Positions 14-31,269 of a stretch of DNA of 64,000 nt are shown here, piece after piece. A program made the translations under genes and the position numbers. Source of the DNA: Tribonema minus (Eukaryota; Sar; Xanthophyceae; Tribonematales; Tribonemataceae). The notes beneath the pieces were generated by a model that saw only the letters and a list, made by a program, of their open reading frames with translations, was not told the DNA's origin and searched no databases. The stretch lies in assembly GCA_017506865.1 (NCBI GenBank), contig JAFCMP010000025.1, positions 310,001 to 374,000 on the forward strand, written 5' to 3'. How positions within the stretch are numbered: position 1 is the stretch's first letter; every line of letters starts with the position of its first letter.

Positions 14-3000
14 CTGATATGCTGAGGAACCCTCCAATGTCCAGATAATCCAGTGGATCCTCCAGGTACGTTTTGGAGAGTCCTTCCATGGTATCGCGCG
101 CAAATGCAAGAGCGGGCTGCAACGACCAAACGCGCACAGGCCAAAAGGCTGAGGTCCGATTGCTCGCGTCGACATCGAAACGTGCGCTTTGTGACTGAAG
201 CTCAAGGCACGGTGCACCCAAAACCCCTCACATTAGTTCCAGCCTCAACTTCAAGTCCGGCAGATGGCCCAAAGCCTTCTTGTACAATTCCACTCGTGCT
301 CGAGCATGTGACATTGAATTGTGCTGAGCTGCAACCCCCGTACCCACTCATAGGGTTGGTGTAAAGCATCACTATTAAGACTCATACTCCATCGGCAATG
401 CAGCGCCAGCAATCGCCGCAAGGCTGCTGCGGCACTGCAGGCGCCACGAGAATGCAACGCCAGACATCGCAATGGGGCTGTTGTGATCTCTGGCGGCGTC
501 TCAGTCGACGTCGCAGCGCACCAGCATTCAACAGCAAACCTCAAGTGTCAGCGTCCCATGTGGATATACGAGCTCCAGCATATTAACTCCACCCCCTAGA
601 CTATGCCAGCTGCATGCGATAGGCAGAGTATTCAACCCCCCCTCCCCCCCCCCCCCCCCCCCCACCCCCCATGCCAGTAGACGGCAATGCACTGAGCAAT
701 CCTGGGTTGGGTTGGCTGTTTCAATGCAGTACTGTAGGCTGAAGCCATTCATTGTGATAGACAGTGACTAGCCGTGGCACGCATCCATTGATGGGCCAAG
801 TAACTGAGAGCATTTCCGCCGCACCCGTGAGCGTCATCAGCGCTGCAGTGTACTTCAACTCATAGGAAAGTTTCGCCTCACCTGCAGCTTGTAACGCGGA
901 GCGTCACCAGACTTGTATTTGGTACTCCTCAGGCGTACTTGAAGTAAGGCATTTCTGTTTCAAGTATACAATAACCACGCCCAGCTCTGGGCTGCTCTCG
1001 GCGCAGAGCACCATCAGACGTGTCCTTGGTGGACTCGAGGTCCTCAAGCATACCTCCTAAGCTGGTCGGCTTCCACTTCAAGCAAGAGACCACGAATTGA
1101 TCTTGTGCGATACGTCGTCGTCGTCGCTGCAGTGTACTTCGACTTGCAGACAATCTTTCGCGCCTCACCCGTGGGTCGGTCTGCGCGGAGCGTCGCTGTC
1201 TCTGCAGTGCACTTCAACTTGAAGAAAAGGGTTCCACCTCGCCCGCAGGTCGGCCTTGCACGGAGCGTTGTCGCTGCAGCGTACTTCATGTTTACTTGAA
1301 CATGCACCTCACCTGCGGGTTGGCCTTGCGCGGCGCGTCACCAGCGGCGTCCCACGCGCACTGCTCCATTCGTGCGCTGCGGGTATCACGCGGAGCATCG
1401 TCGTCGCTGCAGCGTAATTCAACTTTCAATTCAACTTGCGCCTCACCTGCGGGTTCGTCTTGCGCGGAGCGTCACCGGCGGCGTCCCACGCGCACTGCTC
1501 CATCATGCGCTGCGCGCGGCCCATGGGCGCGAGGTCCGGCCCTAGGAACGTCACTTCAACAAGACGGCCGAGGCGCGAGAGCTGGTGGTGCGCGCTGAAG
1601 AGCTCAAAGAGGTCGTGCCAGGAGCCGGCGGCGGAGGAGCCGGCGATGACGGCCTGGGTTTGCGGATAGGGGTATGCATCAGGCGTGTGTGCTTTGAGTT
1701 GACTTTGTGTTGGCAGTGGAGAGCTGCAAGAGCACTTGGGTTAAGGTTAGAATTAGGGTGCGGCACTCTTCTGTCGCGCACTAATTGTTGCGCGCGCCAA
1801 GACGCTCACTGAGTCCGTTTGTGAGACGTGGGTGATCGCTGCTGCCACCACGGGTGGAAGGTAATGCATACGACGCCGCAACGGCGCGTGCGACCGCAGC
1901 ACTGAGTGAGTATAGCAGCCCACGTAAACCGCAACAGCACGCCGCGACGCTACTTACCCAAACCCTCATTCTACCTCTCTGCCTGCACCTTTCACTTGCA
2001 CACTTCAAAGCAGAACAGACAAGTCAGTCACTGCTGCGCGCCGTGGCGGGGGCATCGTACCGCATGCAACGCCGCACATAACTGCAGGCCGAATGAGCAC
2101 AACGCAATGCGCTTAGGGTTAGGGTTAGGGTTTGGGCACTCACCCGGAACAGTTTTGTCCAGTTCCTAGAACCGTCCGCGTACCAGTCCCCGACGTGCTT
2201 GGCGTTGGGCAGCTGCGCTGCGTCCCATGTGGCCACTGACAGGTGGTCCCTGATGATTGGCTGGATGTTGGCGGCACTGAGGATCGCGCTGCCGGAACCC
2301 CCTATTCAGGGTCACAACAAGGGGACAGGCCGGAAAGTGTGAGTTTCTTTGCGCAGCTCACACTATAGGTCAAATACGGAAGCTGATTAACGCTACAACA
2401 GGGTAACAGGCCTAATAACTGCGAGATTACTTGCGCAACTTACGCAATAGATTGAGAACAGAAGCAGCAGCGTGCACCCGCTTCTTGCTTGGCATGGAGC
2501 CACAGAAGTACGCTGCCCACCCGCCCGTCAATAACCCCTCCCCCGCGCAATGCAGTGCTTCCGCCTGCTCCAAAACTGCCCTACGTGGGCGTCGGGGGTA
2601 CAGGTAACGTCCGTGGGGGTTGGCGGGCGGGTGTGACATCCGTCACCGTGGCCATCGCCAACGCCACCGGGGAGGTGGGGGTGAGACCCGTGGTCATGTT
2701 CGGAGAAAGCGGTCATCCAGAAACACCTCGTAGCGAGCCGCCAAACACAAAAGACGCCAGCGATGATTTGACCCCTGGGCCACTGAAGAGCGTGCTGCTC
2801 AGGTGAAGGAGGTCCAGAGCTGTTGGTTCGCTGGCACTTGCAGCTGGCACTCTGGCGTCTTAAGTAGCACTGCCGCCACAAGGCTTTCTGGATGACCGTT
2901 TCCTGCGAGTATGTTCACGAGTCTCACCCTCTACCCGATGGCGATGGCCATGAAAACTCCTGTCACACCCGCCTTGCCAACCCCCACGTATGTCGGTCAC

Positions 3001-6000
3001 TCATACCTCGACCCCCACGTAGCGACAGCTTTGAAGCAGGAGGAAGCGCTGCATCGACCCACAAGCAAGTGACTAGCGCAGAACTTACAGAACTCCACCG
3101 AACTCCTACCCTATGCTGCGAGTTCAAGGAGTACTTCAACAGTACGCAGTGCTGCATGTCTGCCAGAGATCTGAGAGACTGTGCTGCGTGTGATCTGTGC
3201 GCCCGAACCAATCGCCTCCCCCCACTTCTGTGCCCCCCTGCTGGTGCCTGGATTTTGGCTCCACTTTGTGCCGAAATTGCCAAAAAGTCTGAGTATGTTC
3301 ATCAGCGGCAGTTTATTGCCTGCTTGCGCATGACCTACGGGCGGGTGGGTAACGTAGAGCTCAAGGGACTAAATGAAACTTCTACTCTTTCTGCTACTCC
3401 AAGAAGGACTTCAACAAGTACTTCAAGAGGGACTTCAAGAGTATTCCGGGATGTATATCAGCGGCGGTTTCCTGCCTGCTTGCGCCGCAGACTCTCCAAC
3501 ATAGAGCCTCCGCAGGCGCGACAGCATGTGCTTGCGACACTTTCGACAGCCGGGCAGCATATAGCTTGAGGAGTCGTCTAAAACTTCTACCTTTGCCTCT
3601 AGTCCAAAAAAATCTTCTAGAAGTACTTCAAGAGGTACTTTAAGAGGCATGCAGATATCAGATTGATCAGTGGCGGTTCTTGCCTGCTTGCGCCGGGGAC
3701 TCGCCGTAGTAGAGCCTCCGCAGGCGCGGCAGCATGTGCTTGCGACGCTTTTGCCAGCCGGGCAGCATAGAGCTCCAGCGACTCCTCTAAAACTTCACTT
3801 TTTCTGCTACTTCAAGAGGGACTTTAAATAAGAGGTACTTCAAGAGTATTAAGGTATGTATATCAGCGGCGGTGTCTTGCCTGCTTGCGCGGGGGACTCG
3901 CCGGCGTAGAGCCTCCGCAGGCGCGGCAGCATGTGCTTGCACATCGGCCGCACGTCCGGACTGGCGTCGTCGGTCTGGTAGACGAGCCTGCACACGCAGG
4001 TATGTATGTACACACGTACACGCAGCGCATTGGTGAATTCGTGCAGTTAATTGGGCATCGGCGTATACATACATCAAGTGTGTCATTGGCGATTCCTTGC
4101 CATTGACCGAGCGTTGGCATATACATGCATCGATGCCATGGTGATGTCGGTCTGGTAGACCAGCCTGCGCGCGCAGGTAGGTATGTATGCACAACACGCG
4201 CACAAGCACACACAGCGCATTGGTGAGATCCTTCCGATGGATTCAGCATTGCCATAAATATACATCAGTGCCGTGGCGATGTCGGTTTGGTAGATCAGCC
4301 TGCACACGCAGGCATGTATGCACATGCGCACACACAGCGCGTTGGTGAACTTTGCAGTTGACCGAGCATCGGCTTATACATACATCGATGCAGTGGCATT
4401 GGTGTATTCTCGCTATTGACCAAGCATCGGCGTGTACATACATCGATGCTGTGGCAATGTCAGTCTGGTAAAGCAGCCTGCACGCACAGTACTGTAGGTA
4501 TGCACACGCACATGCCGACGGTCTAGTAGATCAGCCCTGCGCGCACAGCACGCGCACGCGCACACAAAGCACGTTGGGCGATTCGTGCAATCGACTGAGA
4601 AGGGTGGACAAAACAAATCTGCAAGATGCCTGATCATGCCATAAGTTGCCTGGTGGTACCAGGTCCCTGGTACAAGTTCCAGCGTGACATGCCACACGCG
4701 AAGTTCAACTCGCAAAGTTCAACTCACGTCTGGCCATCGGGCAGATGCTTCTTCACAGGCGCGGTCGCACTTTCGTTTATGCCGGCCTGGAACTTGTTGG
4801 CGGGTACCTCCGATGACCCCCACTTCTGCAGCAGCAGCTGTCGCACGACGCGCACGAAGAGCGTAAAGCACAGTCGCAACGCTCAGCTTGACGAATATGT
4901 TGAGTCGTGCACTTCGGTCAATCTGTATGGGTCCATTTTGATTAGGTTGAGCTGGCTACCTGGCTGGTGTTGCCGTGTCCACGAGAGTTTGGCCTTGTGT
5001 GGTCCAGCGGAATGTGAATGGCCACCACAAGCTCGCTCCCCCTCTTTCTGTGCCCCTTGCTGGTTCCTGGGTTTTGGCCCCATTTTCCCCCAACATTGCC
5101 GAAAACTCTGAATACTTGCGCAGGAAGCGCATGCAACCTCCCGTTGAGGGGGGCATCCGCTGTGCAAGCGCCGTAGAGCGCGCTCCATCAAATGTCCTAC
5201 ATGCCGGAGTTTAACAAACAAGTTTGTGCTTGGAAGTGTCTCAAAGCATGCATACCTACCCCACCTTGACAACGGAGCTCATGCCGGACAGCAGCGGCAC
5301 GCCCGTTGTGGTGGGCGTAATGTTTTCGTAGCTGCTGATGTCTTCACCGGACAGCAGGCGCGTGCGCTCCACGGGCACGTCCCACCCGCGCGCGGCGGCG
5401 AGCACGTCAAGTTCAAGTTTGAGGTTCGCAATGTCGTCCGCGTCGTCGACTATGGGGCCCAGCCTGCAGAGGCAGGGAGAGCGTCCGTGCGCATGAATTA
5501 TTTCACTTTTGTCGGTGTGGTGACCCACTTTGAGCGGCGGCGAGCGCGTCAAGTTCAAGTTTGAGGTTCGCAATGTCGGCCGCGTCGTCAACGATGGGGC
5601 CCAGCCTGTAGCAACAAGGAAGGGCAACCGCATGAGTTGATGTGCACTTGTTGGTGTTGATCAGATACGCTGCGCTCATTGAGACAGGCTGAAGCAACAA
5701 CCTGCCCATGTAGCACTGAGGAACTTGTGACAGACTGTCAATCAGCGCACCCCGGAGGGGGCCGGGGGGGGGGGGAGGGGGGGCAGTAGGCCTTGGAGTT
5801 TGACTTTCTCGCTAGGAGACCCGGGGAATGGAAGCAGCGCGTTCATCACAACTTGGCGGTACCATCCAGCAAGTGTAGGTATGTAGCACCGCTGGTGGTA
5901 TGCTTGTATATATATATATACTTCATTGTATATATACTTCTTGATGTGTATGTGTATACACATGTATGCATATGCCCTTCACGGCTGGTCCGCGCTCGAC

Positions 6001-9000
6001 CGCACTGCATAGGACAAAAGTATGCGTGTCAAGGCTAGAGGAGCAGGCAGAGGCCATCCAGGCTGTGCAAGCTCAGGCTGCCACCGCGCAAGCGAATGGC
6101 GCCACCACAGCTTGGAGGAAGAAAGCGGCCTCCAGTGAGTGGCAGACAATGCGGCATGTACGTACGTGCACTCCATGCTTATATGGGGGGGGGGGGGGGG
6201 GGGGTGTTGTCTGACTGCTTAAACTGTGTTTCAGAAGCATTTGTTGTTCCATAATGCACACAAGTAATGCATTGAAGTGATACAATCGTGGCAGCCTTCC
6301 GTACAGAACATGTGCTTTAGAGTATATGGCGATACATCGTAGACATATACTTCAGAAGTACATCAGCGATGCGCAGATCACATATTCATGTGATCGTTGC
6401 CAACTGCTGCTGTGATGCACTTCAGAGTGCAAGTTCGTACTTTTTGTGATACCACCAATCACCCCAATGCATTCCAGTTTTGTCCTTGAAAGTGGCTCAC
6501 CTGCAAGCGTACTATTGTGATTTACCTACAAGTCAACCCAACAAATGTCAGGTTCGTCCTTGAAACTGGCTCACCTGCAGTGCGAGTAGTGATGCTCCAC
6601 CAGCGTGACTGCCAGTATGAGCATGTGCTGGTCGACACCAGGAGAAAAAAACACAAGAAACATACCAGTTACAGGGGCACAAAATCACTGAACGAGACCG
6701 AAAGCATTTTAGTACGGTCACACAAAAAAAAAGGTTCACAACAGCAGGAAGTGGCAGCAGTCACGTGAACTCTGATTCACTCAAGGCGGTGTGATCTGCA
6801 CAGAGGGGTAGGGTTAGGGTGAGGGTTAGTTGCATTGAGTTGTGATGCCTACTGCTGAAGGCCAGGCTCTCTCTGGCAGACGTATCTGGTCAGGGTTAGG
6901 GTCAAAACCTACCCCTAACCCTAGGACCTTCAGCTCTGAAGCGAACGCCTCAGTGGTGTACTATGAATCCAACACCACGAGTGCACGAGCAACTCACTTT
7001 GGAAACATGCGCTGAACATATTGTCAGTATTATCCAGTGTCTGGATCCTGTAGAGTCTCACTCGCCATCAATGGTCAATTCATCCTTTAACATTGGCGGT
7101 ATGTGCGTGACATGATTGTGTGAGGCTCTGGGCCATCTTCTGATCGCAGCTGCTCGTGTGCATGCACGATGCTGATTCCATGTAGCAGAAACGCACCCGT
7201 TAGACCTCAGGCTAGGGTCCGCAACGCTACGAAGACCAGATACCTGCACCAACACAACAGCCGCAAGAGAGAAACATCCGGGCCTGGTCTCACTGAGCAG
7301 CAGGGCACATACGCCTCTGGTGAATTCACACCAAGCGGTGATGAATGCACATCCAATGGTTGAGACTCTGACTTTGACTCATACCTTGGGGTTGTCGCCC
7401 CACAGCTCGTCGGCGGTGAGCCGAGCGCGGATCACCTTGGCGGCCTGCAGACAGAATGACGAGCAATGCTAACACTATCAGCCTTACAGAATGGAAATCA
7501 ACAATACCAATAGCAGTAATGAGCTGCAAGAAACGTCTCAAGAAGTATTCCTGTACAGCAGGAGCAGGCGGTACCACGTGGAGCGCTTTCTCATACACAC
7601 AAACAAGTCAGTTCTAGAATGGACTTTAATGTCGCCTGTGCATGGGGAGGAAGCAGGTCGTGCATGTGGAATGGTGCTCGTACCGTGCAAAGAAGCTACT
7701 TCTAGAATTCACTTCCACGTCACCTTGGCGTTGAACGATGCAAATGCACAAACGATCCAGTTTTCTTCCGCATCACCGGTAAGGGAGGACGCAGCCGGTG
7801 TGGCATCATGTACAGACGCGCAGCCAAGTCACTCAACTCTGCATCAGCCACATGTAGAGAGCCCCTCAGATGCGCAAATAAGGCAGTTCTGAAATTGACT
7901 CGTGCGTCACGTGTACGGGCAGGAGGCAGTCGTTCGTGTGGCACCAGACCTAGCCCTAGCCCTAGGTCGCCTCACGCACTCAAAGAGGCTCTGCAGTTGG
8001 AGTGGTGCTCACGTACGGAAACAAGACACTTCTGGAATATAATCATATGTCACCTGCAAGGGAAGAAGCAGTTGTTCGTGTGCCATATACTACAGACACG
8101 CGGCAAAGTCACTTGGGAATGGAACTCCGCATTTCAGGCACATAAAGGGTGATGCTCAACCGCCCAACAACTCAATTCTGGAATGGACTTGCGCGTCACC
8201 TGTAAGTAAGGGCAGAAAGCAGCGTGGTGCATGCGCAGGCGCTCAGCTAAATTGCCGCTGAAGTAGAATCTCGCATTAGCTACATGTGAAGTGATGCTCA
8301 GACGTGCAAACAACGCAGTTCTGGAATGGACTTGTGCGTCACCTGCACGGGCAGGACGCAGTCGTACGTATGGCACATTGTACAGGCATGCAGCTCAGTC
8401 ACTTTGCAAGTAAAACTGCGCATTTCAGCTAAATGTAGAGTGATGCTCGGATGCGCAAACAAGACAGCTCTGGAATGGACTTGCGCGTCACCTGTAAGTA
8501 AGGGCAGAAAGCAGCGTGGTGCATGCGCAGGCGCTCAGCTAAATTGCCGCTGAAGTAGAATCTTGCAGCAGCTACATGTGGAGTGATGCTCAGACGCGCA
8601 AACAAGTCGGTTCTGGAATGGACTTGTGTGTCATCTGTATCGGCAGGAAGCAGTCGTTCGTATGGCACAGTGTACAGGCATGCAGCACAGTCACTTTGCG
8701 AATGGAACTCCGCATTTCAAGCGCGTGTAGGGTGATGCTCAGACGTGCAAACAAGGCAGTTCTGGAATGGACTTGTGTGTCACCTGTATCGGCAGGAAGC
8801 AGTCGTATGTGTAGAAGTGGCCCAGGTCGCGCCGCGGGTAGATCATGAGCAGTGGCACTTGCGCATGGTGCCACGCTTGCTTCAGCTCGCCTGCGACAGC
8901 GGCAAGATATGAAGTTTTTGGCAGCAAGGTGGGAAGTTATTGGCACCAGGGGTTGAAGTTTTCAGCAGCAACAAGTGAAGTTCATCAGCGGGACGGCGCA

Positions 9001-12000
9001 ACGGAGCGCACTGCAGCAGAGCGCCATCGCTCACGCCTGCTTCAGACAATCGATGCCATGTCTACCCTGACTCACAGCTCACCGCATGTTGAGGTTGGGT
9101 CCTGCTGAGCACTGACGTGCCTCATTATGCAGGTTTCTCAGTGCTCACTTTCAGCGACACGTGCACGACCCGTGAGACTCGTGTCTGCTTGGGTCCCTGG
9201 GTCGTCGACCTCTAGCGCGGTGGCGAGCTACACGCTCTCACAAACACTGAAACATGTCGTGAAACCCTCGTGTTGAGGTATGTACTTCGCGGCGCAGGAG
9301 CAAATCACGAAGGCCACGTTTGGTTTCACAATTCAGCTATGCTACAAGGCATCACCCTGGTATCCACGTTCTGCCTCGTACTGCTGCACCGTATTCAGTA
9401 TGCAGCAACCCATGCGCAGGTCCATTACACCGCACTACATGATCTCTTCCGCCACAAACACCTGCTTGCACATACATTGTCTCTCACCTCCTTCCAGATA
9501 GAGACGGCTCAGGAACACCTGGCAGTCCGGCCGGCCTGTGTCGTAGGCAATGCACTTGCGGTACCACTTCTTGGCTTCCGCCCTGTTGCCGGTGAAGTAG
9601 TGGTGGTCGTGCGCAATCCACCTGTTAAGGGCGTTGTAGAAGAGAGTTCGCGAAGAAAGACAGGGCACACGAGGTTGGTGTGCATATGAAGTAGTGGTGG
9701 TCGTGCGCAATCCACCTGACAAGGGAGTTGCAGAAGACAGTTCGCAAATACCTTGCTGAAAGACAAGTGGGTATATGATGCGCACAAGTGGCGGTGGTCG
9801 GGTGCAATACTAACGGGGCAATTTAGAAGCCACAATTGTCGCGCCCACGCACCTTATGCGCCTTACAGGATCGGATCGTTGCCCAGACAGCGGGAGTCCT
9901 GCCCTCATTGGTTGGCAATGCTAACAAGGCACTTCAGGAGACCACAACTGCTGCGCCCACACTGATGCTGCTCCAGAAAATCGGTTGCGGTGCTGACAAG
10001 CACTTCACAAGACCATAACTGTTGCAAACGCGCACGTGATGCTGCTCCACAGGAACTCGTTGGCCTGGCGGACCGCGGGGGCCTCGCCCTCATCAGCTAA
10101 CAAGGCACTTCAGGAGACTACACTTGTTGCGCACACGCACCTGATGCTGCTCCACAGGAACTCATTGACCTGGCGGACCGCGGGGGCCCCGCCCTCGTCG
10201 GTCTGCACGTACTCTTCCTCCGGCACATCGTGTAGCTCCACCGCCTTCATCAGGTACCCCATGGCCTCGTCTATCGTCGCCGCGATCTCGGGCGTGCGCG
10301 CGTGCGTGCCCTTGCCGATCTGCGTCTCGAGCCTGCGTAATCACCCCAATTGCAATACAGATACAGTGGTGTTCAGCGTGGTGTGTACATTGCAGTTTCC
10401 GCATCGTGTTTGAAGTAATTATCAGGATTGAAGTACCGTAGCTCCACGCCTTCTGTACACACCCCATGACCTCGTCTACACTCGGCGTGTCTCGCGTCTC
10501 GCCTGCGTGCATGAGTGCATCGTAGTTTTCAAGTACGACTGTTAGGATTGAATTGTAGCTCCACTGCGACCACCATGGCAAGGCAGAAGTGGGTAAGCGT
10601 GCAGGCTCATGCTACTAGCAGTCTCTTCTCGCGCCTACAAAGTAAGCACATTGGAGTGCCAAATTGCTGCCAAACGTACGATCATATGGCACAGAGGCGG
10701 GAGGGACTCTGGACCTTGCGCTAGATCAGAAATCGTGCTTCTGCCACTATCAAGCTCTTCTTGCTTCTATAACTGAACTTCAGGACAGTCCGAGCTTTGC
10801 CATACGTATCCAAACAAGCTTTTCTTGCTTCTACAGATGAGTAACTGTCAAGCACGCCTTGTGAGCACTGTAATGAGAAGGTAGAAGAGCATGTGAGGAT
10901 AATCTAAATGCAGACTTACAGCTTTTCTACGTCAACAGACTGGTAGCTGCCAAGAAGTAACTGCCGAGCGCACCTCGCGGGCATCGTGATGCCAAGGCAG
11001 AAGAGCGTATGAGGATACTCCAAGTACTTTCACAAAGCTCGTTCTCCTTCAACAGACTTGGTAACTGTCAAGCAGTAACTGTCGAGTGCACCTCGCGAGC
11101 ATGGTTATGCCAAGGCAGAAATGTGTATGAAGATATGTACTCGAAAGTACGCCCACAAAGCTCTTCTAACTTCAACATACTTGTAACTTCAAGTAGTAAC
11201 GAGAGCCCCTCGCGAGCATCGTGATGCCGTAGAAGAGCACATGAATATAGTAAAAAATCACCCACAAAGCTCTGCCAACTTCAACAGACTTGTTACCGTC
11301 ACGTAGAAACTGTCGAGCGCACCTTGCGAGCATCGTGATGCCGAGGTAGAAGAGTGTGTGCAGGTCTTCCGGCATGTCGGCATAGTCGCGGCGCAGCAGC
11401 TCCATGTCCATGTCGAAGCGGTGCAGGCCGCGGCTGTGGCCGTGAATGTTGGTGTGCCAGCTGAGGGCGCCCTCCACCTACATGAACACACGACAAAAAT
11501 GGAGAATCCTCAAGTGTTGTACTGCTGTTCACGTTTATTTCCCGAGTTTTCCAGAGTGCTCTTAACGTTGGCAAAGGCGCACACAGAGAACATATAGGTG
11601 GCAACATGAGCAGCTGCAGATTGATGTTGAAGCGGTGCAGGCCGCGGTTGTGGCCGTGGATGTTGGTGTGCCGGCCGAGGGCACCCTCCACCTACCCGTG
11701 CATACAACCGGCAAATGTCAAGTACATGCACAACATATACTCTACATTAACACATTATGTGTGTCACATGCATATGTTGAAAGTGCAATTCCAAATCCAC
11801 GTTGAAGTGGGGTAGGGCGCGGCTGTGGCCGTGTATATTGCTGCGTCAGCTGCGGGTGTCCTTTTATGTAGAAAAACATGAAACTGGGCACTTTGAGAGA
11901 TGCCACGTGTAATTTTACCACACTTGGCATATGCATGCACACTTCAAGTTCTTTCAATCTAACATGTATTTGGCAGAAGGCGCATACGCATGTGTGTAGC

Positions 12001-15000
12001 ATCTCCACACTATGCCATGAGCAGCTCCATATACGTCGAAGCATCGTGGGCTGGACCGTGGCTGTCCAGGTTGGTGCATCAGCTCAGGGCTCCACCTGTG
12101 CATACCATGATCATCGACCAACTCCAAGTGTAAACAGGCCAAGGCCATCAGTTCAACTCCAGTATGTATGTATGAGGATGCCCGCAAGTGTGGAGCGGCT
12201 CGCCTCATCCACAGTTACAGCCGTAACCGCCGACTTGAACTTTTCTGAGAGCGTACATACCTCTGCGACTTCCCACTTCGTGCGCTTGCCGGGGAAGAAC
12301 CCGTTCGGTCCCGGCGGCGGCACCAAGTCTTCGTGCAGCCGGTACCTGCAGCCGTGTGACAGAGGCAGTGTGTGCAGACAGTGGTGTCGTGAGGACTGTG
12401 GCACGAGGCAGATTCAGTTGGTAACATGCGGCAGAACAGAGTGCAAGTTGCGAGAAGCTCGGCGCAAGGACGGAAACGTTGGGTGCGCCATCCAATTCAT
12501 AGCGATATTCCCATGTAAGCAACATGAGCCTCAGTGGGGGCGGTACCTGCAACTGTGCAATGACATCGGGGCGTGCACGGCGATTGTGAGCAGTGTAGCA
12601 TAGGGCAGAGTCAGTTTGTGCTGCAGCATGCGGCAGAACAGAGTGCAGCCATGGCGGTTGCAAGAAATTTACCGCGTGAGGACGGAGCATTTGGGTGCGT
12701 CATTCAATGTCGTTGCTCAGCCGTGACTGGCTAAAACGACCACAATTCTTGATGTGTTCAGGACAGTGATCACAAGCGACACGGCCCACAGTCTAGGGGC
12801 AGGAGCGTGATACAGCCGGCTTTGTCTAGGTAGTCGCACAGGCAGTGACGATACAGACAAATTTCAAGCGTCAGCGCTCGCACGGCGCCAAACGCCAGAC
12901 CCCAACACTAATCCTGATCCTCACCCTAGACCTAGCCCTATTTGTGACCCACTGCTGCTCGCAGTGCGCAAGGGAGCAGCCTTCATCTCATGCTCAAAAT
13001 GTTGCAAGGCGCCTACTGAGGGCGGCCTTTCACAGTGATACGAATGGCTGGTGCTCTCAGGTAACATGAAGATCAACGATTCACGGGGGCAGACAGGCTA
13101 AAGTGGAACTTCAAGAGGGGTAGTCCGCCGCATGAGATAAAATCGTCCGCATTACCAGGGTCAGACTTAGGGTTAGAGAGGATTTGCACAGCAGGCAACG
13201 CTGGCGAAATGAATGAGCCCGTGAGCGTATCACCGAGAAGGGCGCCGGCCCGAAGAGATAGGGTTAGGGTTAGGGCTGGTCATGATGGGCAGTTCGATGC
13301 ATGAGACGGGATCATACGTACTAACATCAAGGATGCGCAGAGCATGCTGCGGTGGCTGAAATAATTGAAACCATGAGCGCATCAAAGGATGAAATCGTGG
13401 GTGAATCAATGGAGAGGCAGGGAGAGCTGGCTAAAACATGCTGGTCCTGCAATTACAATCAGCATGCAAACTTACAATAACGTCAACCTAAATGTGTAAT
13501 CAGCCGTGAGCTCCAAACGTCACGTTGTGCGAGAGAGGCAGGCGCGATCCGCGGTTACCCTAACCCATAACCCATACTTCAACTTCTCACGGCACCTGAA
13601 TCTGAGGCCCTTGATGTGCTTTTGAAGCCACAGCGCGAGCCGCATAGACTGACCGCTCCTGCAACAGTTACACAGAATGAAACGGCTGTTGAGGAATGGC
13701 CTCAGAATTGTAGCACAGCAGTCGAGATTGACCCCAAAGTCTGCAGCGTGTGCGGCAAACAAAATCGCGCAGCATAGATTGCCTGTTACATGGTTGAGGC
13801 AACCTCACATTCTGCAGAGTCATGAAGTCTGCTTAGACTGTCCGCCACTGCCACATTCACACGGAGTGAAACGGCATTGGAGGAGTCATGCAAGATGAGT
13901 ACTCGTACATGCATTTGTAGACACCCTGGAAAGCAGTCAAGATCGACCCCAGCTCGCATTTGTGCGGCAAATACACTTGCACCGTGTCCCTTGCCTGCGA
14001 GTTGATGGGAATTTCAATTCGACAAAAGGCAACCTCAATTCTGCCACATTCGCAGCAGAGTATCTCAACAGACACACACCACAGCAGTCCATGACTAGAC
14101 GCAGCTGATCGTGGAAGGGTTATAATGGTCACAGCGCAGCTGATCGTGGAAGGGTTATAATGGTCACAGCGCCAGTAGTAGTGCATACAGCGCCATAGAA
14201 CGTTGCATAAGTTTGCACTTGGCCTTCTTCCCGCACATGCTGCATGGGCTTGCTTGAACCCAGGTGTTGGTGTTGCATGCTCCGCACCATCTGCTGCTCT
14301 GTCCGATGCCCTCTCAAGTGTGGCGGCAATTTGAGCGCAATTTGACTCACCTGTCCCAGATGCTGAACTCAAAGGACTGATGGTCCATATCGAGCTCCGT
14401 CTTGTCTGTTGTGGACAGATCCGGTTTCCTGGGGGTCGGGGGGGCGGGGGGGGGGGGGCGGAGGCGGATGCTGAGCATTGGGCATTCATGAATCATACCT
14501 ACCTATGGTGACAGGGTACAAGTCAATGTTCCACCGCGCGCGAGTGTGAGAAAAACAAAGAAATGGCGACGCATGGTGAGGTGGGTGCCATGCGCCAAGC
14601 GTGGTGATGTTCTACCGTGGCCCTAGCCGATAGCTTACTTTAAACTGAACACAAATTCTACCCTCGTGTAATACGCAGAAGCTAAGACATGGCAGCGCAG
14701 CAGCACGCTGTCATCCACGGAGTAAACAGTTCGAATGGCGGGCGGAGTGAGCGCTATGAAGCGATGGTTGAGCGCTGTTGACGGTGTGCTTCTCTCGCGC
14801 CTCGTGCGCAGCGCGCATCGAGGCTGCTGCAGCAATAGCGCCGTGTTCATGTAATGATGTGCTGCGGTTAGGGTAGCGTCATCACCATATGCAGTCACAG
14901 CCACACTACACCTCCGAACTACACACTTTGAAGCATAAATGATGTACAATAAGTATACTTTGAAAGCGCAGACTCATGAAATGTATACTTTCAAGTGCAA

Positions 15001-18000
15001 CTCTGAGCGTGACACTTCGCAATATGTCCGTGCACACATCCACATATACTTCGCATACATTTCAGACTTCAAGTATTGTACAAGGCTGAAGTACAACGCA
15101 ACAGGTGTGCTATTTTGACGTACTTCAAATATGCTTACACTCACCAGTTTGGGTCTGCCATCAAGAGATGCGTAGTGTTGAAAGAGTTCTGCCAAGAAGT
15201 ACTTACTATATGCCATATTCACCAGTCTGGATCTGCCATCAAGAGGTGCATAGTGTTGGAGTAATTCTGCCATACATATGCCCACACTCACCAGTCTGGA
15301 TCTGCCATTAAGAGGTGCGTAGTGTTGCGGTAGTTCTGCCACGCAGCATCCAGCGCTAGATTTCGTGCCCCCGCGAAACCGTCAAAGGTGTACTTGTACA
15401 CGGTCCTGCAGAGCAAGGAAGACACAGAGTCAGTGCAAAACCATAAACATGAAGTACTTCGAAGTATTCAGTTTGGAAAAACAATCAGCACAAGAAGGGG
15501 TGGCAGCAGGATGATCAACTGTGCAAGTGGTCTCCATATCGTTTGGCAGGATCAGAAGTGATGCACACGGCCCCAATCCTCGTTCACTCAGAGCCAATAG
15601 CAGCTGTGAGGGACCTGAAGAGCGCGGATGGGAGCCAAAATGCATATGATGCGTGACATTGCTCAGCATCAAGCAGCGCCGCACTGCTCATCACAGCACT
15701 GCACTGCTCCTGCAGGTACTTGGACGAATGTCATTGTAGAGTGCTGCAGATGGCACAGAAACTGGTGTTGTGCTGCAGACATGTACTAACACGCAGCAGC
15801 ACCGCAGCACGCGCAGCGCAAATGCGTCGCAGCAAAGGCCATTTGGGCTGTACATTGTCAGGGTGCATTATGGCAGTCCAAGGGTGCGCATTGTCGGGTC
15901 AGAGCGCGCATGCACACGCACAGCGATGCTGGCGTTGTTTTCGCAATGCTGCACAGCTTGTGATGCTATGATGCGTGGCATGGCGCAGCACCAAGCGGCA
16001 CCACACTGCTCACAGCAGCACACTGCTCCTGCAAATGCAAACAAGGAATGTCATGTTCATGTCTTGAAGGCGGCGGGGTAGCTGGTGTTGTACTGCGCAT
16101 GTGGCACGAGCAAGACGCAATATAGTCTTTCGGCGGCAATTGCAGGAACGCATGCATTCCTCAGCCACGCCTACTGCACTGCGTTCAACGCGTCGAGGCA
16201 CGGCACATATAATACTCCCAGCACCGTGCTGAACCGCGATGAACACAACCGCAGCGCACATGTGGTGCGCTGCAACCGCCAGACCACCACTTTGGTGTCC
16301 ACAGCAGCAGCCATGTTGCACATGACTGACGTTAGCGCGGCGCGCAGCGCGGCAGTACCCAGGCGGTGCCATGTGTTCAACGCACTGATGCCATAGCAGC
16401 GATGTGTGTGGCTCTCGCCTACGTGCTGCGTAGTACAGGTGTACATCCGCAGCGCTTGCGGTGCGTATGCGTCCTGGCAAATGGCCGTTCAGGCGCCCCG
16501 CATCATCAGGTCAAAGGTAGCGCAATGCGGCCCTCTATGACACACCGTGCAGCGTCACAGCTTGCAGTGAACATTCAAGCTCAACATCGTACGTGATGCC
16601 GCAAAGTCTATTATTGAAGTAGCATACAGGGAAAATGAGCTTTGAGCTCCCACCTGGGCATCCACGACGGCAGCGACGCGTGTATCGCCCCAATGCTGTC
16701 ATCGTCCGTGCGGTCATCCACTCCAAACACAAAGCAGTCCGCCACGTCCCGCCACAGCGGCAGGTTGAGCCTGGCGAGCAATCATCGACATCGTTTAGCA
16801 GTTTGCAATTCCAGTGTTGTGCAGCTTCACAATGAACGTCTGTTCGATGTTATGCCGCTTCGAATTCACCCTTCAAGAGTGCAAGTTGTCCAGTCTCCAG
16901 AGTTCAGAGTCAACACAAAGCAGTCCGCCACGCCCCGCCACAGCGGCAGGTTGAGCCTGGCCAGCAAATGTCAGCACTTATTTGCGGTTTGAAAATTGGT
17001 ATTATACATCTGAACGATCTGTGTCTGTGACCATTTGCATGTTCCATGTTTGCCGCATCAGATTTGCGCCTAGAAAATGCAAGCTGCCCCATTGGCGTTG
17101 GTTTGCAAAGTGCGAGGGTACTGACTACGAATGATCAATGCGCGCGTTGCTGTTGGTGAGCTCAGCATTTGTTGGCTCGTCAATGCGCCTTTCACACATG
17201 ATGAGCTTAATCTACTGCCTGCACAACCGTAAAGTGTCAAAGTGGAGCAGTCCGCTGCACTGCATGTACTGCCTGGGGAGCAGGCGTCGCTTCGTCGTCA
17301 GTGCTCAAAATACTGATCTCTGGAGCGGTGCAACAGGTATGCTAAGCCGCATAAGCGCAGGAGCACCGCAACAGCAGCTGTGCTACCAGCCTATCCCCGG
17401 GCCAACACACTGTGTGCACGTTGCACGTGATAGCTCAGCCTGTACGCAGCAGACAATACCTGTCGCCGCCAGCAGTATCCAGTGCGGTCGGCAGTGGTCA
17501 GCAGTTGCTGAATATTGACATGGCGAGGCTGTTACTGCTCAAACTAATCAATAATGAACCCTGCATAACATAGCTGCTTGCATTTGCTACTTAAGACATT
17601 GGCTTTTGTACTTGAGTCCTCCATGTTGCACCAACAAACTCAAAGTGGTTGGCCCAGGTCTCGTACACACACGTAAACAAATGGCACTACCAACAGTGGC
17701 CTCATTGCAGTTCTGGTGCTATTTCCTTGCAAATTGTCTGGCGGGGTCCTCACTGCCATGGCATGCTAGTCGACGGCAACATCAACCATACAAATCAACA
17801 ATATTAGATTTAGAGTCAAGAGTCTCGTGAGCATTTTGAATATGTGCTGCCAACTCATCACCATCTGCTGCAAGTAACCTCAATGCCTGGGCAGGACATA
17901 ATTGTTCCACATTTGCAGCTTCAATGATGATAGCTATCAGTGGCAGGCCGGACCTCTGCATCCCGCCGCTTGCACTTTGGTCATGAATATCATGGCATAT

Positions 18001-18594: not shown

Positions 18595-18850
18595 TTCACC
18601 GCATTAGCGCCTCTAGTGTGATGCATCACATCTGCAACTTCAACGGGTAATTAAAGATCTTCAAATTGGATCCATCCTTTTAAAAAGATCTGGAGAGACT
18701 ACCTACACGGACTGTGTGGACCCGATTGCGCACTCGAATAACCTGTACGCGTAAGTCTGCAGGGCTTGGCGTGTGCTGCAATGCCGCCGATTCACACCAC
18801 ACGAAATCTTCGGCTTCGGCATTAAGTCCGTGATCACCAGCTCAAAGATG
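18595..18850. promoter_or_regulatory. Divergent promoter region
   Basis: Only about 256 bp separates the start codon of the glycosyltransferase (minus) from that of D2HGDH (plus), so both promoters and 5' leaders must overlap here. It holds a perfect 14-bp palindrome, TGTGATGCATCACA, at 18617-18630, and an AT-rich TTTTAAAAAG block near 18678-18688. Their function is inferred. Confidence 0.5.
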
Positions 18851-21800
18851 ATGCCAAGAGTGGGTTTGAGGCAGGTGCGGAAGCTGCGGAGCTTGGCAGG
18901 CGGCAGCTTGCGCAGCATCACCAGCAAGCAAGGCGGCCATGGCGATGGAAAAAGCAGCAGATTCACATCAGCGACGGCGGAAGACATAGATGTTTTCAGA
19001 AGCATTGTGGGGGAGGAGGGCTTAGTCACGGATGCGGAGGACCTTGTACCTTACAATACTGACTGGATGAAGAAATGGTCCGGTAAGAGTTGCTGCATTT
19101 TGCCTGTAAACATTCATTCATATTCGCGCTCAGCTGCACTAGCAGGTCTACCGCGCTGCTGCAAACTCCGCCATCGTTTCATGCACGACCTGACAGCGAG
19201 CACTAGTTTCACGCCTCCGGATGCAATAACTATACAATTGCAGGTTCAAAAGCAGCAGGTCCACATTTTTTTCTGCTGTTGTGTCGTCTCTTTGAGGGGC
19301 GTGAGATGCCAGAGGTGCAACACCCCCACACACGTCCAGGGTGCTCGCAAACTGCCACATGCACACTGTCACCATCGCATCGAAGACGCAGACTCTCAGA
19401 GCACACCTGCTGCTGGTCAGATGAACATGCTTTTTAAGTGTTGAGGTACCCGCCGGGCACCGCCCCCCTCCGTCGCTGCGTGCGCAGGCGGCTCCCGCGT
19501 TGTCAGGGTCCTCGCGCACTGCCACATGTATATTTTCACGATTAAACTGAAGGCACAGACTCTTAGATCACACCTGCCACTGGTCAAGTGAACATGCTTC
19601 TAAAGTATTGAGGTACACACCGCGCACCGCCCCACTCCGTTGCTGCGCACGCAGGCGCCTCCCGCGTCGCCGTCCTGCCCAGGACCACGGAGCAGGTGTC
19701 CAGGGTGCTCGCGGACTGCCACGCACACGTTAAATCACAGCAACAGACCAGGAACAGCTGCTCAAAGCACGCCTGCCGCTGAATGAAACAATCGCTCTTT
19801 GCCCCCCCCTCCGCCGCCGCACGCACGCACGCACGCGCGCAGGCTCCTCCCGCGTCGTCGTCCTGCCCAGGACCACGGAGCAGGTGTCCAGGGTGCTCGC
19901 GCGCTGCCACATGCACATTTTCACGATTAAACTGAAGGCACAGACTCTCAGAGCACACCTGCCACTGGTCGAATGAACATGTTGTTGAAGTGCTGAGGTA
20001 CACACCGCGCATCGCCCCCCTCCGTCGCAGGCTCGTCCCGCGTTGTCGTGCTGCCCAAGACCACGGTGCAGGTGTCCAGGGTGCTCGCGCACTGCCACGC
20101 GCGCGCCATCGCCGTCGTCCCGCAGGGCGGCAACACGGGGCTCGTCGGCGGCAGCATACCCACGCGCGACGAGGTCATCCTCTCGACGTCGCGCCTGAAC
20201 GAGATCGTTGCGTTCGACGCCGCGGGCGGCGTGCTGACGTGCGGCGCGGGCTGCGTGCTGGAGGCGCTCGACGCGTACCTGACGCCGCGGGGTCACTGCG
20301 TGCCGCTGGACCTCGGCGCCAAGGGGACGTGCCAGATAGGGGGGAACGTGAGCACGAACGCGGGGGGGGTGCGCGTCATGCGCTACGGCGCGCTGCGCGC
20401 GTCGGTTCTGGGGCTCGAGGTCGTGCTTGCGGACGGAACGGTGCTGGACCTGCTGCGCACGAACCGCAAGGACAACACGGGGTGAGTGGGTGTGTGTGGT
20501 TCTGCGTGGCCGTGATTGAGCGTTGAAATGGGCCGCTGTGTTGTTTCAATTGGTTTTGTGAGTGTAGCAGGTGAAGGCAGGAAGCTGCACAATATTTGCC
20601 ATGGGCTGCTAGGGACTGTTCTCGGCATGCAGATTGTTATCGTGTGTGGAAAACGGTGCTGTACCTGCTGCGCGCGAACCGCAAGGACAATGCGGGACCA
20701 TCCGCAATGACAATGCGGGGCGAGTACGCGCGATTTTGCTGAGATGCGGGCGCCGTGAAGTACAACAAAGGACACACAACACAGTGTTCTTTGGCCTTGA
20801 ATCTAGTTTTGTGCAGCCTTGAGCACAAACTCATGGATTACGTGTGGCTGCTGCTCACTCTGCAGCCACAAATAGTGCAATGTATATTTGGCAACGCCCA
20901 GGTCTCTCAACCACAGAGCATTGCACTTCATCAGCCATGGCTGCCGCGCGAGGGACTGTTGTTGGCCTGCAGATCGTTCTTACAAATGGAACGGCGCAGG
21001 GCCGTACTGATTGGAATCAAGTGTACCGCTACCGCTGCAGATGTGACGTTGCGTTGTGCTGCGCTATTGTCAGTGCATTCCGCAATATATCATTGTTTGT
21101 CCTGGCCTTCACCCCATGACACCATCAGTCCACTTCTGCAGCGGTGGGATCACCGTTGGCCTGCTGCACCTCATCACAGTGTGTTTCAGGCACACTGTCG
21201 GCTCCTCCACACTCCGCTGGCAACTGCAACTTCAACCTGAGCGTCACCAGGGGCACTCATTTCCTTGTACTGTAGATACGACTTGCAACAGCTCCTCATA
21301 GGCACAGAGCGCACGCGGGGAGTGTTTATTGAGGACTTCGCTGCAAGTCTAACTTCAACTTCAACTTGAACCTCACCACCACACCCTTTTCTTGTCTTGC
21401 AGTTATGATCTGAAACAGCTCTTCATAGGCGCGGAGGGCACGCTGGGAGTGTGTACAAGTCCACTTCAACTCAAATTTCTTGCACCCTGTGTACAAGTCC
21501 ACTTCAACTTCTCGCACCCTTCTGTTCTTGTGCTGCAGCTACGATTTAAAACAGCTCTTCATAGGCGCGGAGGGCACGCTGGGAGTCGTCACCAAGGTCG
21601 CCATCGCGACGCCGCCGCGGCCGACGGCCGTGAGCGTCGCCATCTTGAAGTGCCCGAACTTCGATGTCGTGCTTCAACTCTTCGCGCTCGCGAAGACGGC
21701 GCTCGGCGAGATTCTGTCCGCCGTCGAGCTCATGGACAGCCTGGCGGTGGAGACGGCGATGGCGCGGTGTCCGGGGCTGAAACGGCCGATGGAGCTGGAG

Positions 21801-23610
21801 GACGGGGCGTTTGCGGTGCTGCTGGAGACGAGCGGGAGCTGCGAGGAGCACGATAAGGCCAAGATGGGCGCGTTGTTGGACAGGGCGTTTGCGGCGGAGA
21901 TCGTGGACGACGGGGTAATAGCGCAGGCGAGTGCGCTGCGTATCCTCGTGCGTTGCGCGGGATTCTTGTTTGTGAACGGTCCAAGAACTGGTACATGAAC
22001 TCGCGGCAGATGTTGGGGTCATCACGCAGTCGAGTGCGCGCGCGTCCTCGCGTATCGTGCGCGCGTCGCGTCCGCACACTGCGCACTTTAAGAGTGGTAC
22101 GTTGAAGTGTATATGCACTTCAAGAGTGGTATACGTTGAAGTGTATACGTACTGAATACGATTGTCAGATGAAGACCTCCAGTGTGAGAACTGATTGGGC
22201 GCTGTAGTGCGAGTGGAGGCATTCACATGCTGCAGGCTACGGCACGAATTCACATTTGTGGAACTACAGATGGGAGTCATGTATGACAGCATCATTGCTC
22301 AAGGTTGTGTGCGTACACGGCTTGAGCAGCATGTTCGATCTCCACCACATTGTCGGAAAACGTAGCAGCATCGGCCCATCTGCACAGCGCGCTTCAGCAG
22401 CCCAGAAATAGATTATCATGCTGCGGCATCAGCCGCTTACTGGAGCAGCACCATGCATCTGCAAGTCCCCCATCACAGAGCAGCAGTTCAAGTCCCAAAC
22501 AGCGTCTCAGCACCTGCCGTCATTCTCTGCAGCTGCAGGATGTGAGCCAGAGCAGTGACTCAAGCCCCAAAGCGTCTCAGAGCTAGGGCAGTGGTTCAAG
22601 TTCCCAAGCGTCTCAGCACCTACCGTCATTTGCAACCGCACGATATAAGCCAGAGCAGCTGCTCAAGTCCCACAGCGTCTCAGAGCCAGAGCAATGGTTC
22701 AAGCCCCAAAGCGTCTCAGCCCCTGCCGTCATTCTATGCAACCGCAGGACATGACGCAAAGAAGTGGCTCAAGTTCCAAACAGCGTCGCGGCACCTGCCG
22801 TCATCTTCCGCAACTGCAGGATATGAGCCACAGCAGTGGTTCCAGTCCCAGAGCGTCTTCGAACCAGCGCTCAAGTCTCAAAGCGAGTCATCACCTGCCG
22901 TCATTTTCTGCAGCTGCAGGACATGAGCCAGAGCAGTGGCTCAAGTCCCAAAGCGTCGCAGAGCCAGAGCAGTGCTTAAGTCCCCAGAGCGCGTCTCAAC
23001 ATCTGTCATCAATCTCTGCAAATGCAGGTTATGGATCAAGTCCCATAGCGTCTCACAGCGAGAGCAGTGGATGAAGTCCCTCTCAACAAAACAAACACAA
23101 AAGAAGCGTCTCAGCACTTGCCGCCGATTTCCGCGACCGCAGGACATGAGCCAGGCAGCGGACCTGTGGGCCATTCGCGAACACGTCCCCGTGGCCGCCG
23201 CGACGGGCGGCTACCAGTACAAGTACGACGTGAGCGTGCCCATTCCGCGCTTCTACGAGCTCGTGCGCGCCGTGCGCAGACGGTTCCAGGAACTGTCCCT
23301 GGCGGAGGACCGCGCCGCGGCGTTCGGCTACGGCCACCTGGGCGATGGCAACCTGCACCTGAATGTCGTGTGCGCGCGTAAAGATGATGAGGTTCTGAGA
23401 GCGCTGGAGCCGTTTGTGTTCGACTGGGTCGTGGCGGCGGGCGGCAGCATCAGCGCGGAGCACGGCGTCGGGCAGCACAAGCGCGCGTTCCTGGGCTTGC
23501 AGAAGGGTCCCGAGGCGCTGGCGCTCATGGCGGCCATCAAGCGCGCGTTCGACCCGCGCGGGATATTGAACCCCGGCAAGGTGCTGCCGGACGACCCTGT
23601 ATCTCAATAG
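18851..23610 (+). CDS. D2HGDH: D-2-hydroxyglutarate dehydrogenase, mitochondrial
   Basis: FAD-dependent oxidation of D-2-hydroxyglutarate to 2-oxoglutarate, expected in mitochondria, passing electrons to ETF. Exons 18851-19082, 20031-20481, 21539-21926 and 23143-23610 join in phase to 512 residues, the usual family length. The start was chosen at [19 protein letters not shown], an arginine-rich targeting peptide; an upstream in-frame ATG at 18773 is less likely. The FAD-binding [12 protein letters not shown] lies at about residues 110-121. [34 protein letters not shown], the metal and substrate motif [14 protein letters not shown], and SAEHGVG with [14 protein letters not shown] at the end all match the family. 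Intron 3 must use a GC donor (CAG|GCGAGT at 21927): the join [19 protein letters not shown] then aligns with the family without a gap. Every intron holds copies of neighbouring exon edges. It shares a promoter region with the glycosyltransferase. Confidence 0.95.
19270..19995 (+). repeat. About four tandem copies of the exon 2 acceptor edge (D2HGDH intron 1)
   Basis: Units of about 170-190 bp carry a GAGGTAC-C-CCG-GC-CCG block, the acceptor CGCAGG, about 70 bp of exon 2 (CTCCCGCGT, CCAGGGTGCTCGC, ACTGCCAC), then a CACAGACTCT and TGAACATGCTT tail. They start near 19270 (partial), 19440, 19610 and 19800, and the real exon follows at 20031. Confidence 0.9.
20590..21005 (+). repeat. Two copies of the exon 2 donor edge (D2HGDH intron 2)
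   Basis: The last about 90 bp of exon 2 ([20 protein letters not shown]) is echoed at about 20600-20715, with a second small repeat of ACAATGCGGG at the donor, and again in part at about 20940-21005. Confidence 0.75.
21245..21538 (+). repeat. Two copies of the exon 3 acceptor edge (D2HGDH intron 2)
   Basis: The acceptor and first about 50 bp of exon 3 ([16 protein letters not shown]) appear at about 21270-21335 (decayed) and 21395-21455 (nearly identical, with its own TTGCAG acceptor). The real exon is at 21539. ACTTCAACTT runs precede each copy. Use of the 21395 copy as an acceptor would soon meet altered reading. Confidence 0.9.
22010..22065 (+). repeat. Copy of the exon 3 donor edge (D2HGDH intron 3)
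   Basis: GCAG-CGAGTGCGC--CGT-CTCG-CG at the GC donor of exon 3 (about 21921-21960) is echoed at about 22015-22060. Confidence 0.6.
22480..23142 (+). repeat. About ten tandem copies of the exon 4 acceptor edge (D2HGDH intron 3)
   Basis: A unit of about 50-70 bp built from AAGCGTCTCAGCACCTGCC, TCATT-TCTGCA, the acceptor CTGCAG and the first bases of exon 4 (GACATGAGCCAG) repeats about ten times up to the real acceptor at 23142. Several copies keep a complete CAG|GA acceptor and a pyrimidine stretch. AGCAGTGGCTCAAGTCCC joins the units. Confidence 0.93.
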
Positions 23611-30100: not shown

Positions 30101-31269
30101 TCAACCCCACCGGCACCCAGAACGACCTGCCTAAGGTGAGTTGCAGCTCATGCTGACTCTATTTCTCATGCATCAGCTATTGGCGTTGCTGGCGTAGATA
30201 TTTCTTCACTGCAGCGACAACGATTCCACACTCAACCGGGTGGAAGCTCAGGCGCAACCAAGTCAGCAGGAGATCACTGGCTCAGCGGTCCATCATTGAA
30301 ATGTGACACGCTTGCCAGCTTGCCTGTAGCCATGCCAGTCAGTCTAGCACGCCAATGTGGCGCTGGTTGTGAATGCGTTTTCAGAGTACACTCCAGTATC
30401 TGAAGGTCGTACACGCGTGCCCATGTCGCTGATTGAGAAGTCTGCTCATAGTCATGCTGGGTCTCCCATAGCATCTGACGACTTCAGTACATGCCTCGGG
30501 CTGTTGTATACTATCAGTAGTACGCTGCATCACTTCTTGACCCCAGCTTGGTGTGCTCGCATGATCCAGTTGCTTGGTGGGTTGTCTCAATGCCATGTCT
30601 TTGCATCAGCCACGCTCGATACACTACAGGTAGAGCGACTGCAGGGCACCATCGTGCACACCGGCGCACACCACTTGCATATAATCCACTCGAGTACGAC
30701 AGTGATATTATCAAGTACAATACGCAGACGTAGTTGCACGACAAGGTTGCTGCAATCGTCACATACTACTGCGAACTTGAGGCACGCCAGCTCTCTGCCG
30801 CTACCCCCATGAACGTCACCGCAACTGCCTACAATCGTCAAATACTAATGCGAACTTGAGGTACACCACCTCACTGCCGCCATCCCCGTGAATGCCACAC
30901 CGCAACTGCCCGAAACGCATGCCGCAGCTGGACTGCGGCCCCCCCGGCGACCCCAGGTACCCGTACGACGGCGCGTGCCTCTTCAACGTCTTCAGCGACC
31001 CGTCGGAGCTGACCAACATTGCGGCGCAGAAGCCCGCGGTCGTCGCGCGCCTCGCGGAGCGCCTGAAGGCGATCCAGGCGACGGCGTTCTCCGCAGAGCG
31101 CGGCGACGCGCCCAACGACAAGCCGAGCGGCCTCCCGTGCCAGAGCGCGCTGCGCAACCTGTCGGGGTTCGAGGGACCGTGGCTAGACATGCCGTTCAGC
31201 ACGAAGCCGAGGCCTGTTGCGGCGGGGGCCGCGATGGCCGCCAGCGACCCGTCGCAGGCGGAGCTGTAG
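24170..31269 (+). CDS. Secreted arylsulfatase 1 (S1 formylglycine sulfatase)
   Basis: Hydrolyses sulfate esters, probably of glycans, outside the cell or in the secretory system. Exons 24170-24551, 25701-25784, 27050-27431, 28307-28457, 29752-30135 and 30928-31269 join in phase to 574 residues. There is a signal peptide at 1-26 (LLALAMLLHGAASA). The metal pair is in MIDDWG (37-38), and CTPSR at 81-85 is the formylglycine signature (Cys81). GKWHIG in exon 2 carries the catalytic Lys and His, and VMSDNGGP in exon 4 the Asp and Asn metal ligands. The C-terminus has YPYDGACLFNVFSDPSE and FEGPWLDMPF. By order and motif it is closest to arylsulfatase B/I/J-like enzymes. It lies tail-to-tail with a paralogue at 34796-44386. 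Introns are long (1-1.5 kb or more). Confidence 0.93.
26740..26825 (+). repeat. Short tandem duplication in sulfatase 1 intron 2
   Basis: A unit of about 40 bp (TTTA-CCCATGGA-GC-TG-CCCAATCTGC) occurs twice, upstream of exon 3. Confidence 0.7.
27435..27720 (+). repeat. Three-unit tandem repeat after sulfatase 1 exon 3
   Basis: A unit of about 95 bp starting just after the donor (GGAGGGGTGCTGG, CCCAAGTG-TTTG, GTTGACCACAGGCTGGC, GGGGCATGTGC) repeats about three times. Each unit contains an acceptor-like CCACAGG. Confidence 0.85.
28716..28766. repeat. Perfect 21-bp inverted repeat (hairpin) in sulfatase 1 intron 4
   Basis: Positions 28716-28736 are the exact reverse complement of 28746-28766, with a 9-base loop. 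The stem holds GAAGCCGGAGTC. No flanking target-site duplication is obvious. It could be a structured element, a MITE remnant or a template-switch product. Confidence 0.9.
30750..30927 (+). repeat. Duplicated segment before sulfatase 1 exon 6
   Basis: A unit of about 75 bp (TACTA-TGCGAACTTGAGG, ACGCCA or ACACCACCTC, CTGCCGC, CCGTGAA, ACCGCAACTGCC) is repeated once in front of the acceptor at 30927. Confidence 0.75.

Follow-up and report, generated by a model that had tools for sequence, protein, structure and literature searches.

The introns of two adjacent genes in a 64,000-nucleotide stretch of the Tribonema minus genome (Xanthophyceae; GenBank assembly GCA_017506865.1, contig JAFCMP010000025.1, positions 310,001 to 374,000 of the forward strand; here referred to as the window) contain decayed copies of the splice junctions of their own exons. 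The copies are direct, lie only on the intron side of the edge they resemble, are graded by divergence, and decay in the way that unused sequence does. They are probably the product of recurrent direct tandem duplication of short units that span the exon-intron edge, with neighbouring copies lying approximately 70-240 bp apart. The two genes are here named gene 1, which encodes a protein without a close relative in the libraries searched, and gene 2, which encodes a D-2-hydroxyglutarate dehydrogenase. Two sulfatase genes (A and B) in the same window served as comparison.

Edge copies were sought with probes of 80 bases placed on every exon edge, using a score cut-off of 22.5 (0.5 above the 99.9% quantile of a single shuffle, whose maximum was 24). 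In genes 1 and 2, 17 of the 36 edges have an intron-side copy of their own junction with scores of 24 to 56, the weakest of them (the edge at 21926) scoring the same as the shuffle maximum. On the wrong side, 0 of the 36 edges have a copy (best score 17), and all remaining scores are at most 18. None of the 20 edges of the sulfatase genes reaches 22.5 (best score 20; Fisher p = 1.4e-4 versus genes 1 and 2); the introns of these genes are equally long (364-3433 bp), and lack of room therefore fails to explain their lack of copies. A looser per-copy search (score of at least 18) returned 52 stretches, and after removal of two with fewer than 8 exon bases, 50 copies remained at 19 edges, with one to seven copies per edge and an exon part of 9-90 bases. 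The three weakest (score 18-20) may be chance matches, because the cut-off of 18 lies near the 99% point of the shuffle. The copies adjoin the original edge, and 45 of the 50 align through the splice dinucleotide, i.e., they hold exon and intron sequence from either side of the modelled splice site. Every copy stops short of the full exon portion of its probe (at most 100 bases) and, where the exon is shorter than that, of the full exon: the longest exon part is 90 bases, from an exon of 451 bases, and for exons under 100 bases it is at most 26. The original prediction, made from the letters of this DNA, of decayed junction copies at no fewer than 15 edges of these two genes, each in the intron flanking its exon, is thus borne out by both searches. 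Where its wording has most exons affected, about half of the edges carry copies; its figure of about ten copies for the richest edges was too high, and within the window the pattern is not a general one, being absent from the sulfatase genes.

As had also been predicted, divergence grows with distance. The nearer copy is the more similar to the original in 54 of 67 pairs, and the gradient is net positive at 11 of the 12 edges with at least two copies (sign test, p = 0.006). In 67 triples, the closest pair is the original and the nearer copy 41 times, the near and far copies 15 times, and the original and the far copy 11 times. Because nearer copies and the original tend to be closest, the exon-anchored unit looks, from these alignments, like the usual source of new copies.

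The two halves of the copies have decayed unequally. Identity to the original amounts to 1715/2047 positions on the exon sides and 1594/1984 on the intron sides, and among the 30 copies that have 20 or more bases on each side the exon side is better conserved (means 0.861 versus 0.807; exon better in 19/30, p = 0.006). Mismatches by codon position number 105/687 for position 1, 79/678 for position 2 and 148/682 for position 3. The better exon side and the excess at position 3 are what a neutral copy of an exon under constraint should show, with selection and silent change acting on the exon itself. It was also suggested earlier that the copies supply alternative splice sites, and they might be retained as such or as decoys. 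For this speaks that the dinucleotide is retained in 36 of the 45 copies whose alignment includes it (acceptors 18/21, donors 18/24), more than intron identity predicts (p = 0.02; p = 0.05 for both sides pooled), and that the core of the copied site is better conserved than its flanks. However, retention does not exceed what exon identity predicts (p = 0.10), which is the fairer comparison, the original splice site being frozen as well, and all 36 retained sites would, if used, bring an in-frame stop (34) or a frameshift (22). Retention for splicing is therefore very improbable, and the copied sites are conserved to roughly the degree that an unused copy of a frozen site would be.

The edge copies belong to a broader population of local repeats. 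Self-comparison of the window gave 61 repeat pairs, of which 59 are separated by under 2 kb; three shuffles gave none. With a local search of higher sensitivity, 69 pairs were obtained, 65 in 1-24 kb versus 4 in 24-64 kb, again against none in each of three shuffles. Recognisable local duplication makes up 36% of the intron sequence of gene 1 and 59% of that of gene 2. The local repeats are direct: a minus-strand search of the whole window returned seven inverted local pairs, six of which are palindromes, and this rules out insertion of copies in either orientation. The motif ACTTCAA, considered as a duplication seed, has 29 (+) and 11 (-) matches in 1-24 kb versus 10 (+) and 11 (-) in 24-46 kb.

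In the proposed mechanism, a unit lying across a donor or an acceptor would be duplicated in tandem, after which the first donor, or the last acceptor, would stay in use. In either case the protein would be unchanged, the intron would become one unit longer, and the spare copy would drift neutrally. The exon half of the unit adjoining the exon would remain under purifying selection, and this unit would usually be the source of the next copy; because it supplies the next copy, older copies would be pushed outward in the manner of a conveyor belt. The direction of the copies is no evidence of a special process, because the exon stays intact only if the exon-side copy remains in use; their intron-side placement would follow from splicing logic. 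Within the window, duplication activity is confined to the stretch of genes 1 and 2. Less certain than the rest, being based on models, is that exon-touching duplications may arise or survive approximately 4-14 times more often than intron-only ones. As to the cause, that the stretch, being transcribed or prone to recombination, undergoes breakage and repair is no more than our guess.

Five short TTAGGG-like patches all lie in gene 1 introns (2111-2136, 6804-6829, 6888-6902, 6908-6923 and 13257-13277), whereas the rest of the window and three shuffles have none. In mammals, patches of this type are reported to be scars of double-strand-break repair (PMC2246262 and PMC7215372). By analogy, those in gene 1 may hint at a break-prone or chromosome-end stretch, although TTAGGG may not be the telomere repeat of this organism.

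Whether junctions are preferred by the duplications depends on the model: base coverage shows no preference, while an array test and simulation do, and the earlier statement that the copies are more than random because they are centred on junctions stands on the latter two only. The alternative is that small tandem duplications fell at random in a duplication-prone stretch, without junction preference; those breaking an exon would be rejected, those crossing an edge would survive, and the frozen exon half would keep their copies recognisable. This is possible but considerably less probable than duplication recurring at edges. Probe coverage near and far from edges is indeed similar (0.41 and 0.39). 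However, 13 of 18 arrays contain an edge versus 8.6 under the shift null (s.d. 1.65, p = 0.002), and of the five arrays without an edge, one has its end exactly at an edge and another is located upstream of the known exons. Random placement was further simulated with exons refusing all duplications but those overlapping one edge, with decay, small indels near those of the data, and identical detection; that the exon-side copy stays in use was built in. Scored by the simulation code (34 edges; the outermost two of gene 1 excluded), the real data have 45 copies at 17 edges, 15 probe-positive edges, an edge in 12 of 19 arrays, an edge-to-intron coverage of 1.02, and a distance gradient of 0.82. 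Of 136 calibrated runs without bias (96 + 40), one attained the observed edge-to-intron coverage, seven the probe share, four the array share, and none the 45 copies. In unbiased runs roughly one array in three lay at an edge; simulations in which exons refuse most duplications gave about half of the observed coverage. An exploratory grid of 64 runs showed that very short starting introns can yield equally many edge copies, but settings with enough of them leave introns 69-95% covered, far above the approximately 40% seen. Balanced duplication and deletion without bias, tried as a source of the edge excess, failed to reproduce it in 90 runs: the coverage ratio was reached in 1 and the array share in 2. 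When exon-touching duplications are given 4-14 times the weight of intron-only ones, coverage ratio, probe share and array share come into range; the best weights are 4-8 with a median unit of 130 bp and 8-14 with one of 190 bp. An excess of duplications at edges is thus likely under these models.

Several points weigh against the proposed mechanism: I) by base coverage, 17 of 36 edges are covered versus 14.4 under the circular-shift null (s.d. 2.6, p = 0.21), i.e., there is no enrichment, as random placement would have it, in a test that disregards that exons cannot accept most duplications; II) the biased simulations (4-14) yield fewer copies than observed (means 21-34 versus 45) and a weaker gradient (0.67-0.75 versus 0.82); III) among the balanced runs without bias, 18 of 90 attained the probe share and 10 the 45 copies, mostly with introns covered far too densely (16 of the 18 had the highest turnover, which left introns 55-78% covered); IV) the frozen splice site and exon of the exon-anchored unit shorten its distances to the copies; V) pairs, triples and copies from a single edge depend on one another; VI) the locus was chosen because it looked striking; and VII) the gene 1 model has no close relative to lean on.

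If biased duplication is accepted, a bias targeted at junctions and one in which exons are more prone to duplication and the rest is purged would look alike in these simulations. It is conceivable, though doubtful, that exon-intron boundaries are hot spots of a duplication process that recurs in some genes but does not operate in the genes beside them; transcription, splicing or the chromatin at exon edges might, for example, bring about breakage or re-replication there. Introns would then grow outward from their exons much as bone does from a growth plate, and a large part of an intron would be a fossil record of its own exon edges. Another explanation is unequal exchange between existing copies, in which homology drives gain and loss once an edge unit has been doubled and the frozen exon half sustains that homology. 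Arrays with a two-unit period, such as 8049-8788 (292 beside 143 and 149), point in this direction, as does the fact that the original and its nearer copy are usually the closest pair. In simulation, homology-driven expansion did not reproduce the edge excess and did worse than the other models (five settings, 80 runs): a few intron arrays dominate, edges are nearly empty, and the mean ratio is 0.06-0.19, in what is a weak test because unequal deletion was not included. Unequal exchange is rather unlikely, and duplication recurring at the exon-anchored unit is preferred.

The first 24 kb of the window have approximately 54% G+C, and the window carries spliced eukaryotic genes, for which coordinates are given in Table 1 together with those of the edge copies. 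Gene 1 was modelled from reading frame and splice signals, and neither its 5' nor its 3' end was located by this model. A single frame is maintained across 13 of its 14 introns; at intron 5464-7384 there is a phase break between the flanking exons 7385-7444 and 5265-5463, and a small exon may therefore be missing from the model there. Its Pfam matches are weak and to TPR only, below the curated cut-off. The spliced protein of gene 2 aligns with human D2HGDH (chain 6lpn_A) at 513 bits through all three junctions and contains the domains FAD_binding_4 and FAD-oxidase_C. Among the 28 donors modelled, 25 are GT and three are GC (at 3881, 21926 and 43969); because GC donors occur on both sides of the 24-kb mark, a join of two organisms there is disfavoured.

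Table 1. Genes and exon-edge copies in the window (positions are those of the window).
Feature	Coordinates	Strand	Content	Basis or remark
Gene 1	1447..16770	-	15 exons, 14 introns of 427-1921 bp	reading frame, splice signals, intron lengths, Pfam
Gene 2, D-2-hydroxyglutarate dehydrogenase	18848..23610	+	4 exons, 3 introns	human D2HGDH alignment, Pfam
Sulfatase gene A (comparison)	24170..31269	+	6 exons, 5 introns	without edge copies
Sulfatase gene B (comparison)	34796..44386	-	6 exons, 5 introns	without edge copies
Donor edge of exon 1447-1653	822..1381	-	4 copies	
GC donor edge of exon 3881-3987	3283..3743	-	3 copies	
Acceptor edge of exon 3881-3987	4139..4589	-	4 copies	
Acceptor edge of exon 5265-5463	5534..5657	-	1 copy	
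Donor edge of exon 8784-8890	7577..8657	-	7 copies	
Acceptor edge of exon 9488-9621	9687..9748	-	1 copy	
Donor edge of exon 10141-10332	9810..10080	-	3 copies	
Acceptor-side interior of exon 10141-10332	10439..10510	-	1 copy	junction itself unaligned
Donor edge of exon 11323-11477	10840..11237	-	4 copies	
Acceptor edge of exon 11323-11477	11609..12121	-	3 copies	
Acceptor edge of exon 12261-12345	12519..12600	-	1 copy	weak (score 18.5)
Acceptor edge of exon 13596-13658	13831..13884	-	1 copy	
Donor edge of exon 15292-15405	15099..15231	-	2 copies	one scoring only 18
Acceptor edge of exon 16654-16770	16912..17011	-	1 copy	
Acceptor edge of exon 20031-20481	19334..19910	+	4 copies	
Donor-side end of exon 20031-20481	20605..21009	+	2 copies	alignment ends at junction
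Acceptor edge of exon 21539-21926	21264..21459	+	2 copies	
GC donor edge of exon 21539-21926	22015..22063	+	1 copy	weak (score 23-24)
Acceptor edge of exon 23143-23610	22501..22939	+	5 copies	

Other repeats were found alongside these features. A 270-base tandem duplication (17808-18318, 71% identical), located upstream of the first exon known in gene 1, may conceal an undetected exon. A gene 1 intron holds an imperfect palindrome of approximately 505 bases (2550-3054), perhaps a fold-back element. Two dispersed pairs were noted, 3216-3295 / 5036-5114 (79% identical) and 33510-33595 / 60710-60796 (92% identical). Exon 1 of sulfatase gene B contains an in-frame tandem duplication of 51 bases near the protein start (44244-44347, 94% match). 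Long open reading frames (ORFs) occupy 47149-53192 (+), presumably belonging to a Ty3/gypsy-type retroelement, and 60780-63998 (-), which we take to be a LINE-type reverse transcriptase.

The introns of genes 1 and 2 hold a record of local duplication, much of it descended from exon edges and graded by divergence. If this proves general in the lineage, it would offer a direct and datable view of intron growth and a test of exon boundaries as preferred duplication sites. It is also a warning for annotation, as copied splice sites with 9-90 exon-like bases can trap gene finders.

Dense exon-edge arrays of this kind were not reported in the literature searched by title and abstract, a search that missed most subscription papers. 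Tandemly duplicated and mutually exclusive exons likewise place exon-like copies beside an exon, but here no copy holds a whole exon with both splice sites, and the retained sites lead to a stop or frameshift. Introner elements are splice-site-bearing pieces repeated within introns, as are the copies described here, which differ in resembling only their own exon edge; only 2 of the 61 repeat pairs in this window are separated by over 2 kb. Of the small tandem duplications counted in natural Drosophila lines (1901, with a median of 367 nt; as quoted in PMC2891723), 624 include some exon sequence. These are alike in size class, tandem form and partial exon content; the present ones differ in recurring many times at one and the same edge, in their graded divergence, and in being restricted to a locus. 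In the Rogers model, as outlined in PMC3443670, PMC2891723 and PMC4974935, introns are gained by tandem duplication of an AGGT-bearing exon segment, and the original prediction saw a fit to it. Tandem duplication is the motor in both cases, with a splice-site motif inside the unit. However, the copies contain a junction that already existed, and none of the 27 introns starts like the downstream exon or ends like the upstream exon above the maximum of 100 shuffles each, although very old births could have decayed past detection; this model is therefore unsupported for these introns, and intron birth is a highly improbable origin of the arrays, which from their sequence lengthen existing introns rather than create new ones. 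The nearest published case found is a tandem genomic duplication across an intron-exon boundary in the potato RdRp gene (Ma et al. 2016, PMC4974935). There too, the duplicated unit includes an existing boundary with its exon and intron parts. In potato, however, one event both created an intron and added to the exon sequence, whereas here many successive units lengthen introns that already existed, and none of the introns examined looks newly made.

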